Source of the DNA: Candidatus Aerophobetes bacterium Ae_b3b
GTDB lineage: Bacteria; Aerophobota; Aerophobia; Aerophobales; AE-B3A
NCBI GenBank assembly: GCA_005223085.1
Contig: NJBP01000079.1
Span: 1 to 6,851, forward strand
DNA: 6,851 nucleotides
Direction: 5' to 3'
A program made the translations under genes and the position numbers. The notes below the pieces were generated by a model. That model ran no database searches, was not told the origin of the DNA, and saw only the letters and a list, made by a program, of their open reading frames with translations. This document shows positions 799 through 6,851 of this stretch, piece after piece; within the stretch, counting starts at the first letter, position 1, and each line of letters starts with the position of its first letter.

Positions 799-1746
799 TC
801 AGCGAACCTCAAACTGAATATTGGTGTGACTGATATTGAACTGTCCATTCACCAACTTATTTATTTTTTCCAGAATTTCACGACTCCTGCTGAGGGGAAT
901 GTCATCCACAATGACATGGGCTGTCATCGCGTACATATGAGAAGTAATTACCCAGACGTGAACATCGTGTACTGCCTTCACCCCGGGAATTCTTCTTTTA
1001 ATGACTTCTGCCATTTCATCAATATCTACATCCTTGGGCGTTGCCTCCAGGAGGATATTGGTGGATTCTGTCAGGAGCCTTCCTGCCCATATCAAGATCA
1101 AGCCACAGATGAGGATGCTGATGAGGGGGTCAATGATGAAATTGCCGGTGTAGTAAATAATCAATCCTCCTAGAACTACCGCACAAGAAGAAGCCGTATC
1201 TCCTATAAGATGAAGGAAAGCGCTCCTCACATTTATGTCTTCCCTTCCCAAGCCTGAGAGAAGAAAGATCCCTGCTCCATTGGCTGCTAAACCCAGAATG
1301 GCTACTAAGAGCATCTCCAACCCAGCTACCGACTGAGGAGAGAAAACCCTGAAGATGGCCTTATAAAAAATAAAGGCGGCGATAAATAAGAGAGCTATGC
1401 CATTGACAAAAGCCACCAGCACCTCTGCCCGATAAAAACCGTAGGTTTTCTCTTTAGTAACCGGCCTGGCAGCTAGAACAATGGCAAAAAAACTCATCCC
1501 CAGAGCAAAAAGATGGGTAAGCATGTGTCCGGCATCGCTGAGGAGAGCCAGGCTATTAGTCAGAAAACCTCCCACCACTTCTATCCCCATCACTATCGCC
1601 GTAATGATAATAACGAACTTCAGTCTTGTCCCTTTGAGAAATCTGTCTTCATCTAATGACCGAGAATTTTTTTTCAGATCACCGCTAAGATATACTGGAT
1701 CTTCATACGCCGGCGATAATTTTCCCTTTTTAAAAAAATAGGCCAT
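799..1746 (-). CDS. Cation diffusion facilitator (CDF) family metal transporter, CzcD/ZitB-like
   Basis: A 315-residue membrane protein of normal family length (ZitB is about 313). CDF proteins exchange Zn2+, Co2+, Ni2+, Cd2+ or Fe2+ for protons across the cytoplasmic membrane, usually as exporters. Six hydrophobic helices are visible at about residues 43-63, 66-92, 108-130, 141-165, 175-200 and 203-224. Helix 2 has DAGHMLTH (H74, H78) and helix 5 has HLIGD (H179, D183). A C-terminal cytoplasmic domain (about 235-315) contains HDVHVW at 260-265 and ends HTNIQFEVR, both family hallmarks. Helix 2 normally carries HxxxD; here the second ligand position is His, which may change metal choice. There is no His-rich loop between helices 4 and 5. 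ATG 1746 is chosen over ATG 1752 because GAGAGG at 1753-1758 lies 6 bases from the former and 0 from the latter. It lies 158 bases downstream of the GAF gene on the same strand, so it may or may not share the hydrogenase transcript. Family is certain; metal is not. Confidence 0.92.
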   Translation of the reverse strand: MAYFFKKGKLSPAYEDPVYLSGDLKKNSRSLDEDRFLKGTRLKFVIIITAIVMGIEVVGGFLTNSLALLSDAGHMLTHLFALGMSFFAIVLAARPVTKEKTYGFYRAEVLVAFVNGIALLFIAAFIFYKAIFRVFSPQSVAGLEMLLVAILGLAANGAGIFLLSGLGREDINVRSAFLHLIGDTASSCAVVLGGLIIYYTGNFIIDPLISILICGLILIWAGRLLTESTNILLEATPKDVDIDEMAEVIKRRIPGVKAVHDVHVWVITSHMYAMTAHVIVDDIPLSRSREILEKINKLVNGQFNISHTNIQFEVR

Positions 1747-1818
1747 CAGCATCCTCTCTCTTAGGGATAATCAATGATTTCCCAAACTTTTGCTAACATG
1801 GCTTTCCTGCAGCATCCT
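1747..1818 (-). repeat. Pair of 9-base direct repeats upstream of the CDF gene
   Basis: AGGATGCTG (minus strand) occurs at 1755-1747, covering the CDF start region, and again at 1818-1810, 63 bases upstream. The upstream copy also opens a 14-codon reading frame ending at a TGA. The 1747-1904 gap otherwise shows no convincing -35/-10 pair and no terminator hairpin after the GAF gene. The repeat may be chance. Confidence 0.25.
1753..1758 (-). promoter_or_regulatory. Ribosome binding site of the CDF gene
   Basis: GAGAGG on the minus strand directly abuts one ATG (1752) and lies 6 bases before a second in-frame ATG (1746). The spacing decides for the second. Confidence 0.6.
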
Positions 1819-1904: not shown

Positions 1905-2972
1905 TCATAACTTAGGAGGGCGAGACCCCCAGTCATACCACTTCCACACGTTCTGGGTAAGGTCCTCATGATCTCTCTTTATCTGTTCAAATAACCTGGC
2001 ATTTTCAATAGCGGTAGCTACCTGGTTGGCCAGAGCGGAGAGAAAATCCACCTCGTCAGGAGTAAACCGGTGAGGAAGAGATGAGTAAACTCTGAGCAGT
2101 CCGATGGCCTTATTTTTCACCAATAGGGGAACATACAGAACCGCGGATATTCCTTCCCGTTTTATCTCTTCTCGATAGCCAACTCGAGGCTCGGCATCCA
2201 CATCAGCAATATTGACCGGTTTTCCCGCTAAACATTCCTGATCCAGCGGACTCTCGCTAACCCGGACCGGTCCCTTTTCCAGGTATTTCGTACTTAAGCC
2301 ATAGGTTGCTCTAATTTTGAGAGTTTCTCCCTCCCTATTTAGAAGTCTCAAAGAAGCAGCCTTATATCCCATTGTCCTGGCGGCACTTTTCACAATCAGA
2401 TCGAGAACCTCAGAAAGATTAAGGGTAGAGTTGATGCTCTTGGCTATTTCCATAAGGGTTTGCATTCTTTGCTGAAGCCTGGCTTTTTCAATGGCAATTG
2501 CTCCCTCAAGGGCAAGAGTATTGGCAATGGCCACTTCGCTTTTCTTAAACTGGTGAGGCTGGGAGGTATAGATTCTGAGGACCCCTACCGGCTTTTCCCT
2601 CATTTTGAGGGGAACCGAGAGAAGGGAGCATATCCCCTCCTTTTGGGCTTCTTCAGGATACTGGAAAAGTGGTTCTTTGGTCACATCCGCGATGCTCACT
2701 ATTTCCCCTCCCAAAACCTTTTGATCCAGAGGATTTTTTTCTATCTCTACCGGCCCCTTTTTGAGGTACTCCTGGCTTAGTCCATGGGCCGCCCTCATTT
2801 CTAGCCTCTCCCCTTTTTCATCCAGAAGTCGAATAGAACAGGCTTTAACCTTCAAGGATCCGGTACATCCCTTAGTTAGAACCTGCAGGGTCTGCTGGAG
2901 ATCTTCGGCGGCAATCAGATCCCCACATAGTTCACATAATTTTGATATATACCTGGTTTCTGAACATTCCAT
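1905..2972 (-). CDS. Tandem GAF-domain protein linked to the hydrogenase operon
   Basis: 355 residues, probably soluble and cytoplasmic: no signal peptide or membrane helix. GAF domain 1 covers about residues 8-166 and GAF domain 2 about 168-330. They align without gaps at residues 43-122 versus 204-283, with 43 of 80 positions identical by hand count, so the gene holds an internal duplication. GAF domains bind small ligands or cofactors and act as sensors. No kinase, cyclase, HD, sigma-54 or DNA-binding output domain follows; the protein ends with a short tail containing WKWYDWG and RPPKL. Five cysteines lie in the first 45 residues (C3, C13, C16, C36, C45), including a CELC pair. The frame extends upstream to 3098, but those 42 codons overlap hydA, and AAGGGAGG with a 5-base spacer marks ATG 2972. 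The gene begins 40 bases after the hydA stop with no terminator between, so cotranscription is likely. A redox or ligand-sensing or accessory role for the hydrogenase is inference only. Confidence 0.85.
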   Translation of the reverse strand: MECSETRYISKLCELCGDLIAAEDLQQTLQVLTKGCTGSLKVKACSIRLLDEKGERLEMRAAHGLSQEYLKKGPVEIEKNPLDQKVLGGEIVSIADVTKEPLFQYPEEAQKEGICSLLSVPLKMREKPVGVLRIYTSQPHQFKKSEVAIANTLALEGAIAIEKARLQQRMQTLMEIAKSINSTLNLSEVLDLIVKSAARTMGYKAASLRLLNREGETLKIRATYGLSTKYLEKGPVRVSESPLDQECLAGKPVNIADVDAEPRVGYREEIKREGISAVLYVPLLVKNKAIGLLRVYSSLPHRFTPDEVDFLSALANQVATAIENARLFEQIKRDHEDLTQNVWKWYDWGSRPPKL

Positions 2973-3012: not shown

Positions 3013-4272
3013 TCAATGCACCGAACAGGAAAAGCAAGGATCATAGGCCCTAGCCAGCATCTCACAGAGAAGAGCGATCTTCTTCTCCGGCAGGTCACTG
3101 TTTTGTCTCACTAAATGGCGCATATCCTCCTCAATATTGGCAAAATTATGGACGGTCGGGGTAACTATATTGGCCTTTTCTATTACCCCCCTGGCATTTA
3201 TAGCATACCGGTGGTAAAGTAGGCCCCGGGGGGCCTCGGTTACAGCTCCCCCTTCCCCGGCCCTCACCCGGTAGCTACTATCCTCGGGGAAAAGCTCCAA
3301 ATTCTCGAGAATTTGCCGGCATTCCTGGATGCCGTAGAGGAGCTCCAGGGACTGAGCTAAATTATTATGGAAAGGATTGTAATCGGGGATCTTGAATCCC
3401 ACTTCTTGAGCCAATTTCCTTACCGAGGGCGAAAGCTGGTCAAATTTGAGGTTCAATCGAGCCAGAGCTCCTACCATTAATGGACCTCCCGCTTTAACTT
3501 TGGCTCGCTTGGCCATACTGTAGGAAACCTCTTCCTCCTCAAAATATTCCTCATAATCTTCCTCGGGGATGTCCAGACCCTCGCTGGAAACAATACTTCC
3601 TTCCATCATAGCGTAGTGGTTAGCCGCATTTAAAGCCACATACTCGGCTTTTCGGAAAAAATTGGCAAAAGGAAACTCAGAGACCATCCTTACCGTTCTG
3701 ACTGCATCGTCCTCCGTTTTTTCCAGATCCCGGTGCAGTTTCTTTAACGCCTGGGGAGAGGAAAGATCAGTGAACCCATTTACCACCGCACTCACTGGAT
3801 GACTGGCCCTCCCTCCGATGGCTGCCGTTAAATCATTCATGACTTTTTTCATCCGCATAAGACGGGATAGCTCCTCGGTAAACTCGGGCAGCATTTCTTG
3901 AGCACCGGGATAGCCATAATAATCAGGCATAGCTAGCATATAAAGATGAATAAGATGACTGGATACCATCTGGGAAAGAGACATTAGTCGGCGTAAAATC
4001 TTTGTTTGTTGACTGGGATTGATTCCCATAGCCTTCTCTATAGCTCTAAGGGCCGTAGTCATATGAGAGACTGGACATATTCCGCAGATTCTGGCTACTA
4101 TATCGGGAACCTCGTCATGTTTTCGCCCCACCAGGAAACCTTCAAAAAAGCGGGGAGGCTCAAAAATGTTAAGTTTCAGCTCCTGGGGCTCTTTACCTTT
4201 GATACTAATTTTAATAGCCGTCTCCCCTTCCACCCGGGCTAAATAATCTATGGAGATAACTTTTTCACTCAT
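3013..4272 (-). CDS. hydA: [NiFe] hydrogenase large (alpha) subunit, group 3b/sulfhydrogenase type
   Basis: 419-residue catalytic subunit that carries the NiFe(CN)2CO site and splits or forms H2 in the cytoplasm. The N-terminus has the family's ARVEGE motif (residues 12-17). The L1 motif RICGICPVSH (61-70) supplies C63 and C66. IGGRASHP (152-159) is the usual conserved block. The L2 motif DPCFSCSVH (411-419) supplies C413 and C416, so all four metal-binding cysteines are present; the first L2 residue is Cys, not selenocysteine. The protein stops directly after H419, the residue after which the C-terminal peptide of most large subunits is removed, so this form looks pre-matured. ATG 4272 is chosen because AAGGAG lies 9 bases upstream and the sequence matches family N-termini; an in-frame ATG at 4314 lies well inside hydD. 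The gene overlaps the hydD stop by 8 bases (ATGAGTGA), implying coupled translation. Group 3b is inferred from the hydBGDA gene set. No maturation genes are in the window. Confidence 0.96.
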   Translation of the reverse strand: MSEKVISIDYLARVEGETAIKISIKGKEPQELKLNIFEPPRFFEGFLVGRKHDEVPDIVARICGICPVSHMTTALRAIEKAMGINPSQQTKILRRLMSLSQMVSSHLIHLYMLAMPDYYGYPGAQEMLPEFTEELSRLMRMKKVMNDLTAAIGGRASHPVSAVVNGFTDLSSPQALKKLHRDLEKTEDDAVRTVRMVSEFPFANFFRKAEYVALNAANHYAMMEGSIVSSEGLDIPEEDYEEYFEEEEVSYSMAKRAKVKAGGPLMVGALARLNLKFDQLSPSVRKLAQEVGFKIPDYNPFHNNLAQSLELLYGIQECRQILENLELFPEDSSYRVRAGEGGAVTEAPRGLLYHRYAINARGVIEKANIVTPTVHNFANIEEDMRHLVRQNSDLPEKKIALLCEMLARAYDPCFSCSVH

Positions 4273-5032
4273 ACATTTCTGCTCCTTTGCGAAACTCGAT
4301 GGTGGGACTGGCAAATTGGGTAAACTTTCTCACTATATCATCGGGAGCTAAACCCAATTGTTCAAATTTTTTTGCCAGAGCAGGAGCATTGGCATCGCTC
4401 ACCGGCCCCCAACAGCCATAACAGGCTCTTCTGTGAGAAGGACATAGTGCTCCGCAACCGGCATTGGTTACCGGTCCCATACAGGGTTTCCCTTCGGCTA
4501 TGAGAAGACAGATAGCTCCCTTTAGCTTACACTCTACACAGACACAGTATTCAGGAAAAGAGGGCTTGGTGTTTAGAAGGAGAGAAGTCAACAGCTCCAG
4601 AAGATCCCTTTCTCCCATAGGACAGCCTCTTACATACCCATCTACCCTCACATACTCATCTATGGGATGAGCTTTTACTGAGTGAATAACTGAGAGATCT
4701 TGATAGACCCGTTTTTCCACTTCTATTTCGGGGTAGATGTCTTTAATGGCCGGGATGCCTCCGTTAACGGCACAGGATCCTATGGGAATCAAAAAACGAC
4801 TGACCTCTCTTATTCTTTTTAATTCATCAACTTGCCAGGATTCGGTAATGGCTCCCTCAATTAAAGCTACCTCAAAGGGACCTTCTTTTACCCCGCCACT
4901 GGTTCCCATTTTACAGTAGAGGATATCCACCGCTCCTAAGGTTTCCAGAACATGTTCCTGAAAAAAGAAGAATTGAAACTGGCACCCAGCACAGCAGCTA
5001 TATTTGAAGATACCCAGGGGAATTTTTTTCAT
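4265..5032 (-). CDS. hydD: [NiFe] hydrogenase small (delta) subunit, sulfhydrogenase type
   Basis: 255-residue iron-sulfur subunit that passes electrons between the NiFe site of HydA and the HydB/HydG module. There is no twin-arginine signal peptide, consistent with a cytoplasmic enzyme. The proximal [4Fe-4S] cluster is assigned to C14 and C17 (CCAGCQ), C87 (PIGSCAV) and C137 (RGCPMG). A cysteine-rich C-terminal half follows: C163, C165, C168, C175, C184 (GKPCMGPVT), C193, C197, C204 and C207 (CYGC), enough for two more [4Fe-4S] clusters as in group 3 small subunits. An in-frame ATG also exists at 5038, but AAGGA at 5040-5044 would then have a 1-base spacer; ATG 5032 has 7 bases and is preferred. 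The Shine-Dalgarno overlaps the hydG stop codon, and the 3' end overlaps hydA by 8 bases, so the gene is translationally coupled on both sides. The subunit identity is firm; exact ligand assignment of the distal clusters is not. Confidence 0.95.
   Translation of the reverse strand: MKKIPLGIFKYSCCAGCQFQFFFFQEHVLETLGAVDILYCKMGTSGGVKEGPFEVALIEGAITESWQVDELKRIREVSRFLIPIGSCAVNGGIPAIKDIYPEIEVEKRVYQDLSVIHSVKAHPIDEYVRVDGYVRGCPMGERDLLELLTSLLLNTKPSFPEYCVCVECKLKGAICLLIAEGKPCMGPVTNAGCGALCPSHRRACYGCWGPVSDANAPALAKKFEQLGLAPDDIVRKFTQFASPTIEFRKGAEMYE
4282..4287 (-). promoter_or_regulatory. Ribosome binding site of hydA inside the end of hydD
   Basis: AAGGAG on the minus strand lies 9 bases before ATG 4272, within the last codons of hydD. 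It supports this start over the upstream ATG at 4314. Confidence 0.65.
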
Positions 5033-5042
5033 GGACATTTCC

Positions 5043-5870
5043 TTAAATTAAAGTATCCGGAAGACCCCGAATTTCTCTATAGGAGAAAACCGGCCCATCC
5101 CGGCAGACGTATTGGGGCCCGATTTGACAATGCCCGCACTGGCCTATTCCGCATTTCATCCTTCTCTCCAGGGATAGATACAGGCGCGAGCCTACATATC
5201 CGCGCTGGAGAAGACCCACCACTACAAATCTCATCATTATCTCCGGTCCGCAGATTAAAGCCAGCGTATTATCGGGAGAAACCCCCACCCGGTCAAATAA
5301 AGTGGTTACCACTCCTTGATTTTCTTTCCATCGGGTTCGGGGAGGAATTTCGTCTACTGTTAACAGAAGCTGAGTATTTGGTTTTTTGCGCCATAGAGGT
5401 AGCTCCTCCTTAAAGAGAAGATCGTCAGGGGTGCGGGCTCCGTAGAGGATGACCACTTTGCCAAAATCATTATGATTTTTCCAGATATAGAGAAGAAAAC
5501 CTCGTAAGGGAGCTAGTCCAATGCCTCCGGCCACCACCAGGATATTCTTTCCCCGGGCTTCTTTCAGGGGCCAGCCCCTACCATAGGGACCTCGGATCTG
5601 CAACCCGTCTCCCTCCTTGAGTTGAGCCATAGCCTGAGTGACTCTTCCCACCGCTCTTATGGTGTGTTGGAATTTGTTTTTCTCTCCCGGTTCGGAACTA
5701 AAGGAGATAGGAGCTTCCCCAACTTCGGGGATGCCTACCATATTGAATTGTCCGGGAAGAAAGGAAAAACCTGGATTCTCTTTCAACTGGAGTCCGTAAG
5801 TACTGGTATCGTAAGTCTCTTTTTTTATGAAGGTAATTCTGGCCATAAAAGGTCTAAGAGTATTGTTCAT
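5043..5870 (-). CDS. hydG: Sulfhydrogenase gamma subunit: FAD/NAD(P)-binding oxidoreductase with [2Fe-2S] cluster
   Basis: 275-residue ferredoxin-reductase-like subunit that exchanges electrons between NAD(P)(H) and the iron-sulfur chain of the hydrogenase. An N-terminal FAD-binding barrel (about residues 6-100) includes FLPGQF (38-43) and GEAPISFSS (51-59), in place of the classical RxYS motif. The nucleotide-binding domain (about 105-225) has AGGIGLAPLR (114-123) and CGPEIMM (207-213). The C-terminal [2Fe-2S] site resembles that of PyrK: C240, C245, C248 and C256 in MKCGIGQCGHCQIG...VC. ATG 5870 is chosen because its ATGA overlaps the hydB stop and the length then fits the family; the in-frame ATG at 5930 would overlap hydB deeply. 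A Shine-Dalgarno AAGGGA lies 10 bases upstream, inside a small hairpin (5871-5884). NAD versus NADP preference cannot be read here. The symbol follows Pyrococcus and is unrelated to the [FeFe]-hydrogenase maturase HydG. The other plausible family, PyrK-like reductases, is excluded by context. Confidence 0.94.
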   Translation of the reverse strand: MNNTLRPFMARITFIKKETYDTSTYGLQLKENPGFSFLPGQFNMVGIPEVGEAPISFSSEPGEKNKFQHTIRAVGRVTQAMAQLKEGDGLQIRGPYGRGWPLKEARGKNILVVAGGIGLAPLRGFLLYIWKNHNDFGKVVILYGARTPDDLLFKEELPLWRKKPNTQLLLTVDEIPPRTRWKENQGVVTTLFDRVGVSPDNTLALICGPEIMMRFVVVGLLQRGYVGSRLYLSLERRMKCGIGQCGHCQIGPQYVCRDGPVFSYREIRGLPDTLI

Positions 5871-6851
5871 GGGATTTTGATCCCTTGAATTTCTTTGGCT
5901 ATCTCCGTCAAATCTATACCGGTGGGACACCAGCTAATACACCGTCCACAGCCCACGCAGCCAAAACATCCGTACTGCTTTACCCAATAGCTAAGCTTAT
6001 GAAGCACAAATTGCCTCAACCTTGCCCCTCTGGTGAAGCGGAAGTTGCCTCCATGGACTTCGGCAAAATGGAGTTCCTGACAGGAGTCCCAGTGTCTGTA
6101 TCTTTCGGTTTTGCTCAAATCAAGCTCGACCTTATCTACTGTGTTATAGCAGTAGCAGGTAGGGCAGACCATAGTACAATTGGTGCAGGAAAGACACAGT
6201 CCCTCGCCTACCCTGGACCAAACCGGATGATCCAGATTCTGCAGAAGTAAGGAAGCTAGGTTTTCGATATTCAGTTTCTTGACAAATTTTTCCTTTACCT
6301 TGGCTTCTTTTTTCTTCTTAAGCTGAATATCCTCATCAGTAGCTATTTCTAAGGGAAAGGAGAAGAGTTTCTTAGCTTTTTTACTGAAAAACCCTACCAG
6401 ATACCGATCCCCGAGATCAGTGAGTTCAAGATCACAACCTTTTGCCGGATCCTGTCCCATCCAGGGATGGAGGAAGGGACCAGTCCCCATAGAATCGCAA
6501 AAACAATTTTTATCAACCTCCTGGCAGTTAACAACAACCAGGACAGTGTTTTGCCTCTGTCTTGCATAATATGGATCGGTAAACTCATCCAGAAAGACTC
6601 TATCGAGCACCATAATGGCATGAGCATCGCAAGGGTGCACTGCTAGAAGGATCTGCTGGCCCTGGGGAAGGATCTCCTCGGTAACAAGCTGATTATGGTT
6701 CTGGCGGACAAATCGAAAAAGAAGCTCTCGGGAATGATAGATGTATCTCCGGGGAGCCGCCATAGTGCTGATATAATCCATCTGGAGTTCTTGAGGAGAT
6801 TTGATAGGCTGAAACATAATCTCTCTTCCCTCTCTTACCGGTCCAATTATG
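5867..6851 (-). CDS. hydB: Sulfhydrogenase beta subunit with two [4Fe-4S] ferredoxin-type motifs, 5' truncated
   Basis: An electron-transfer subunit linking HydG to HydD in the cytoplasmic hydrogenase. The first in-frame ATG is at 6817, but the frame stays open to the right edge. The 11 upstream codons read IIGPVREGREI, which matches the usual N-terminus of this family, so the true start lies outside and roughly 20 residues are missing. Counting from M(6817), 316 residues remain. An N-terminal region has HPCDAHAI (61-68) and NCFCDSMGTGP (104-114), both characteristic of HydB. A lysine-rich linker follows at about 146-181. Two CxxCxxCxxxCP motifs come next: C208/C211/C214/C218 and C287/C290/C293/C297, the latter preceded by an extra C284. 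Additional cysteines occur in CPTCYCY and WDSC. The stop overlaps the hydG start by 4 bases (ATGA). The promoter of the operon is outside the window. Identification is strong; whether the complex reduces sulfur in vivo is unknown. Confidence 0.93.
   Translation of the reverse strand, partial: IIGPVREGREIMFQPIKSPQELQMDYISTMAAPRRYIYHSRELLFRFVRQNHNQLVTEEILPQGQQILLAVHPCDAHAIMVLDRVFLDEFTDPYYARQRQNTVLVVVNCQEVDKNCFCDSMGTGPFLHPWMGQDPAKGCDLELTDLGDRYLVGFFSKKAKKLFSFPLEIATDEDIQLKKKKEAKVKEKFVKKLNIENLASLLLQNLDHPVWSRVGEGLCLSCTNCTMVCPTCYCYNTVDKVELDLSKTERYRHWDSCQELHFAEVHGGNFRFTRGARLRQFVLHKLSYWVKQYGCFGCVGCGRCISWCPTGIDLTEIAKEIQGIKIP
5871..5884 (-). promoter_or_regulatory. Hairpin covering the hydG Shine-Dalgarno
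   Basis: On the minus strand GGGAT-CAAA-ATCCC forms a perfect 5-base-pair stem with a 4-base loop, ending directly before the hydG ATG. Its left arm contains most of the AAGGGA ribosome site. It lies in the last codons of hydB, so ribosomes finishing hydB would open it. Stem is short; the regulatory role is inferred. Confidence 0.35.

Follow-up and report, generated by a model that had tools for sequence, protein, structure and literature searches.

The C-terminal extension of the [NiFe]-hydrogenase large subunit is usually cut off by a protease after insertion of Fe(CN)2CO and Ni, and this cleavage triggers binding of the small subunit (PMC7294309; PMC12134894). The natural exceptions listed as lacking an extension belong to groups 2b, 2d, 4c, 4e and 4g, and group 3b is not among them (PMC7294309; PMC12134894). 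The stretch of DNA analyzed here (6,851 nucleotides, referred to as the window) encodes a group 3b-type hydrogenase whose large subunit, HydA, already ends at the cleavage point. This raises the question of how such an enzyme is matured. The window contains the following features.

799-1752, minus strand: gene for a cation diffusion facilitator, with ZitB/DmeF-like scores, behind the hydrogenase and GAF genes and in the same orientation
1905..2972, minus strand: tandem-GAF protein with an N-terminal CxxC and a C-terminal VWKWYDWG; membership in the system suggested by linkage only
3013..4272, minus strand: hydA, [NiFe]-hydrogenase large subunit, 419 aa (PF00374, 104 bits; predicted start MSEKV)
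3013..3042, minus strand: C-terminal nickel-binding motif DPCFSCSVH and stop TGA, without extension (direct reading and clade comparison)
4075..4092, minus strand: N-terminal metal-binding motif RICGIC with Cys63 and Cys66 (invariant in the clade alignment)
4265..5038, minus strand: hydD, hydrogenase small subunit (PF01058; NCBIfam HydD, 175 bits)
5043..5870, minus strand: hydG, FAD/NAD-binding gamma subunit, start uncertain (PF00175, PF00970, PF10418; NCBIfam ShyC/HydG/AsrB)
5867..6817, minus strand: hydB, Fe-S beta subunit (PF17179; NCBIfam ShyB/HydB)

The operon order hydB-hydG-hydD-hydA comprises the full group 3b subunit set (beta, gamma, small delta and large alpha). The assignment of HydA to the group 3b type in the first-pass annotation was supported by this operon and by the tree, in which HydA was split from the 3c-like outgroup at 100/99 support. 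The best solved-structure matches of HydA were also 3b enzymes, HyhL (5yxy, 263 bits, the best match) and SHI. Against the SHI HydA equivalog NF040832, HydA scored 286.6 bits, under the curated cut-off of 880, indicating a divergent group 3b-type enzyme that is related to this equivalog but does not belong to it. All four cysteine ligands (Cys63/66 and Cys413/416, in two CxxC motifs) are invariant across the HydA clade, which together with the intact operon suggests a working enzyme. The window thus encodes a cytoplasmic-type HydBGDA [NiFe]-hydrogenase of the group 3b kind, whose H2 activity may be NADP(H)-linked. The host is Aerophobetes-like, and its assembly (G000) is 88.6% complete.

The C-terminus of HydA reads ...ARAYDPCFSCSVH, followed by TGA. 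The codons GAT CCT TGC TTT TCC TGT TCG GTG CAT (3016-3042, minus strand) encode DPCFSCSVH, and the TGA lies directly after them (3013-3015). The first-pass annotation, which had HydA stopping exactly at the maturation cleavage point, was therefore right in both description and position. In the solved structures, the alpha chain of Pyrococcus furiosus SHI (9e15_B) terminates at the equivalent His, residue 424, and the Thermococcus kodakarensis chain 5yxy_A continues four residues beyond that end, i.e., to 428. An AlphaFold model of HydA (pTM 0.84) had pLDDT values below 50 for the last five residues and was uninformative on the C-terminus.

The absence of an extension was shared by all close relatives. 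A same-genus orthologue with 90% identity terminates at the same His as the window HydA, as does a same-family orthologue (G002, 84% identity), whose stop is TAA. The C-terminal comparison of the closest homologues, proposed in the first-pass annotation, covered 15 clade species with 53 to 90% identity to the window HydA, and in 15 of 15 the protein ends DPCFSCSVH-stop. Neither tailed close relatives nor an erroneous TGA, the combination named there as the way the claim could fail, was found. The stop was TGA in seven species, TAA in four and TAG in four, and synonymous codons within DPCFSCSVH varied among them. That all 15 species share one endpoint while their synonymous codons differ goes far beyond coincidence and rules out an assembly error.

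The tail-less clade spans several bacterial phyla. In a scan of named genomes, relatives at 54 to 59% identity were found in genomes labelled Latescibacterota, TA06, Nitrospirota/Thermodesulfovibrionales/Nitrospira and Proteobacteria/Pseudomonadota. Whole-genome searches added the members G281, G285, G290, G396 and G397, and a search of 74 genomes from the phylum of G285 yielded no additional clade member. The assemblies of G290 and L049 are frame-shifted upstream of the motif, yet the DPCFSCSVH end is unchanged. The clade members L095 and L049 seemed to be without the motif, but both are frame-shifted assemblies in which the next frame also ends DPCFSCSVH.

The tree contained 87 large subunits, of which 74 were in the 3b-type part; the outgroup rows were 3c-like sequences and one other enzyme, all with tails of 15 to 28 residues. 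Within the 3b-type part, 57 of 74 sequences carried a tail (4 to 46 residues) and 17 were tail-less, supporting the view of the first-pass annotation that the tail-less state is unusual for group 3b. The window clade (11 rows, all tail-less, support 100/100) has a tailed sister (98/98) with tails like FLKLHIERE. A second tail-less clade consists of G111, G251, G117 and G023 (100/100), and two single tail-less cases, G008 and G334, were found in addition. The tail state changed at least four times within the 3b-type part, a minimum forced by the supported branches alone. The window clade probably descends from a tailed ancestor and lost its extension in one of at least four separate changes in the sampled group. 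G008 sits among Aerophobetes 3b enzymes with LVR-type tails and represents a recent tail loss, provided that its MAG sequence is right.

Substitutions specific to the window clade include Phe414, located within the motif (Ile in 55 of the 57 tailed enzymes), and His375 (Gln in 52 of the 57). A search for residues common to both main tail-less clades but absent from tailed enzymes gave nothing convincing, only one conservative position and one gap. A difference in N-terminal length, for which the "crane arm" model of HypA (PMC7294309) gave the idea, was discarded because no clear difference was seen and start codons are uncertain.

Unusual C-termini were also seen elsewhere. In two 3b large subunits, L141 (G026) and L150 (G184), the first cysteine position of the C-terminal motif is occupied by an in-frame TGA that probably encodes selenocysteine (DP*IACAVH), and a tail of 14 residues comes after the motif. 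L204 (G067:C556) is a 491-aa large subunit of another group that is also tail-less and ends DPCIACAVH-stop.

Proteases were searched with a profile derived from those detected at these loci, and adjacency was defined as a position on the same strand within about 1 kb after hydA or overlapping it. PF01750 alone was set aside as a protease test, since it missed the protease beside the group 3c gene of G023, and a broader alignment was used instead. A HycI/HyaD-type protease gene adjoined 38 of 54 assessable tailed hydA genes versus 0 of 17 tail-less ones. Fisher's test gave a P value of about 1e-7 for this association, but the rows share ancestry and provide only four independent contrasts, which allow no significance, so that evolutionary coupling of tail and protease is not proven.

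The lack of a matching protease, which the first-pass annotation named as support for its reading, held at the loci, with none near any tail-less hydA, but not in the window genome as a whole, which has two HycI/HyaD-type proteases. On contig C29, one of them follows a tailed enzyme at a distance of 1.8 kb. Contig C76 carries the second as a partial gene at its edge; the gene that is likely the same-genus counterpart of this partial gene is most similar to TIGR00072/HycI. The genome encodes four other large subunits, one on C29 and three on C2, all tailed and including a second 3b enzyme on C2 that ends SVH-LVRVR. These four tailed hydrogenases could account for the two proteases, leaving no spare protease to explain.

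Most genomes of the window clade hold at least one HycI/HyaD-type gene, and across the genomes with tail-less enzymes most of the proteases detected genome-wide sit near tailed hydrogenases. G334 has three proteases beside three tailed enzymes and none at its tail-less operon, and G023, G111, G251, G117 and G290 each have one protease near a tailed hydrogenase. One exception is G285, where the region inspected on either side of the sole protease contained no hydrogenase. In the MAG G066, one large subunit, of the window clade, was detected together with HypD in two fragments, and no protease was detected. No protease was detected in the MAGs G065 and G069 either, yet other tailed hydrogenases are present there, and missing sequence may be the cause. 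The Hyp machinery was judged by HypD, which in the window genome is encoded on C76. HypD was not detected in G064 or in G281; the G281 genome is 97% complete and encodes one protease along with two hydrogenase large subunits.

Among characterized enzymes, the group 3b hydrogenases P. furiosus SHI (PF0891-0894) and T. kodakarensis HyhL are the closest solved structures; they have a HydBGDA set like that of the window, and their mature large subunit likewise ends CSVH. The window HydA is only about one third identical to them and has no tail, whereas their large subunits are synthesized with four additional residues at the end, which in P. furiosus are VVRL and require FrxA for removal (PMC2865534). 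The CooH and regulatory hydrogenases were correctly cited in the first-pass annotation as tail-less precedents (PMC7294309, PMC12134894). The regulatory hydrogenases HoxC/HupV (2b, 2d) are naturally tail-less and depend on Hyp proteins, but on no protease, for maturation (PMC7294309), but they are H2 sensors of another phylogenetic group with other partners than HydA. CooH and the Ech-type enzymes (4c, 4e, also 4g) are naturally tail-less too (PMC7294309, PMC12134894); they form membrane-bound energy-converting complexes, whereas the window operon has HydB and HydG instead. When the tail of Ralstonia eutropha MBH HoxG was genetically removed, the subunit ended at the His like HydA, still received its full cofactor and gave active enzyme (PMC7294309). 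Unlike HydA, this HoxG is an artificial group 1 variant, present in a lower amount in the membrane.

Taken together, HydA is probably synthesized at its final length, with the Hyp proteins loading it and no proteolysis needed for its closure (probability about 0.83, judged from sequence comparisons). Fe(CN)2CO and, after it, Ni would be placed between Cys63/66 and Cys413/416 by the standard Hyp proteins. No proteolytic trigger would be needed for the C-terminal segment to close over the metal site, and HydD, the small subunit, would then bind. Natural tail-less enzymes of other groups rely on the Hyp machinery (PMC7294309). The simplest account by analogy is that this canonical route would be enough for HydA, with intrinsic proof-reading of the kind proposed for the regulatory hydrogenase, in which occupancy of the metal site may itself serve as the quality control. 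The clade-wide absence of the extension in several phyla suggests that assembly of the clade enzymes probably proceeds without a trimming step. A different nickel-insertion checkpoint, as raised in the first-pass annotation, is a possible but speculative idea. In E. coli Hyd-2 and R. eutropha SH, tail removal led to nickel-free enzyme (PMC7294309), indicating that tail loss is not free in every enzyme.

Other explanations concern the stop codon, the protease and the function of HydA. A short tail could be made through an assembly error or through read-through of the TGA and then be cleaved. The TGA is followed by C, and the five in-frame codons beyond it (LFFEQ) lead to a second TGA, in a post-stop stretch that is similar in the two same-genus genomes. 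This peptide is not conserved outside close relatives, however, and with TAA in the same-family orthologue and all three stops in use across the clade, read-through is not a conserved feature; such a tail is hardly credible. That HydA is a sensor or a degenerate scaffold instead of a catalytic hydrogenase is very unlikely. Known tail-less enzymes do include the H2 sensors of groups 2b and 2d (PMC7294309), and the operon has a GAF protein gene as a linked neighbor, but the invariant cysteine ligands and the retention of the FAD/NAD-binding and Fe-S subunits of NADP-linked enzymes speak for catalysis, and the window contains no kinase or HupUV-like partner.

The enzyme may also be tail-free but not protease-free, if a protease encoded elsewhere were still needed as a binding checkpoint or chaperone and not as a cutter. 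The HycI-family protease of most clade genomes could act in trans in this way, and a Salmonella protease binds a large subunit that is without the peptide, for which a chaperone-like role has been suggested (PMC7654741). Such a requirement is nevertheless unlikely, as the detected genes lie mostly beside tailed hydrogenases and none was detected in the MAG G066, where the window-clade enzyme is the only large subunit detected. Assembly of HydA at mature length by the Hyp proteins remains the preferred reading.

In 10 of 15 clade loci (the window, L041, L042, L043, L047, L048, L094, L095, L249 and L250) the tandem-GAF gene directly adjoins the operon, either ahead of hydB or behind hydA, and in at least two of the remaining five the contig ends before the GAF position. 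It is upstream of hydB in most loci and downstream of hydA in Aerophobetes. The conserved C-terminal motif KRDxxDLxxxVWxWYDWG had six strong matches in 386 genomes, all adjoining clade operons, and the next match was far weaker and partial. From this linkage, the GAF protein could be a regulatory or assembly partner. It is an improbable extension of this idea that a dedicated tandem-GAF CxxC/WYDWG partner replaced the tail-plus-protease checkpoint and helps or gates nickel loading or subunit joining.

Other neighbors were found in the Nitrospirota-type loci L044, L045 and L049, where a small ORF, thioesterase-like in L044, follows hydA. A carbamoyl-phosphate synthase large-chain gene is located downstream of hydA in L044, and a long ORF of fitting size is found there in L045 and L049. 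The cyanide ligands of the NiFe site derive from carbamoyl phosphate. L049 has no hydB or hydG directly upstream of hydD.

No description of a tail-less group 3b enzyme was found in the open-access literature, which does not establish priority. Other hydrogenase groups are known to include tail-less enzymes, and the repeated, clade-wide occurrence of this state in 3b is apparently new. The role of the C-terminal extension in [NiFe] maturation is an open question, as tail removal kills some enzymes and not others. For group 3b, the structure of the unprocessed large subunit together with HypA has been solved, and P. furiosus SHI plus FrxA provides a heterologous system that works. Tail-less 3b lineages beside tailed sisters offer a like-for-like test of tail function, and tail-less forms could make recombinant hydrogenase production simpler.
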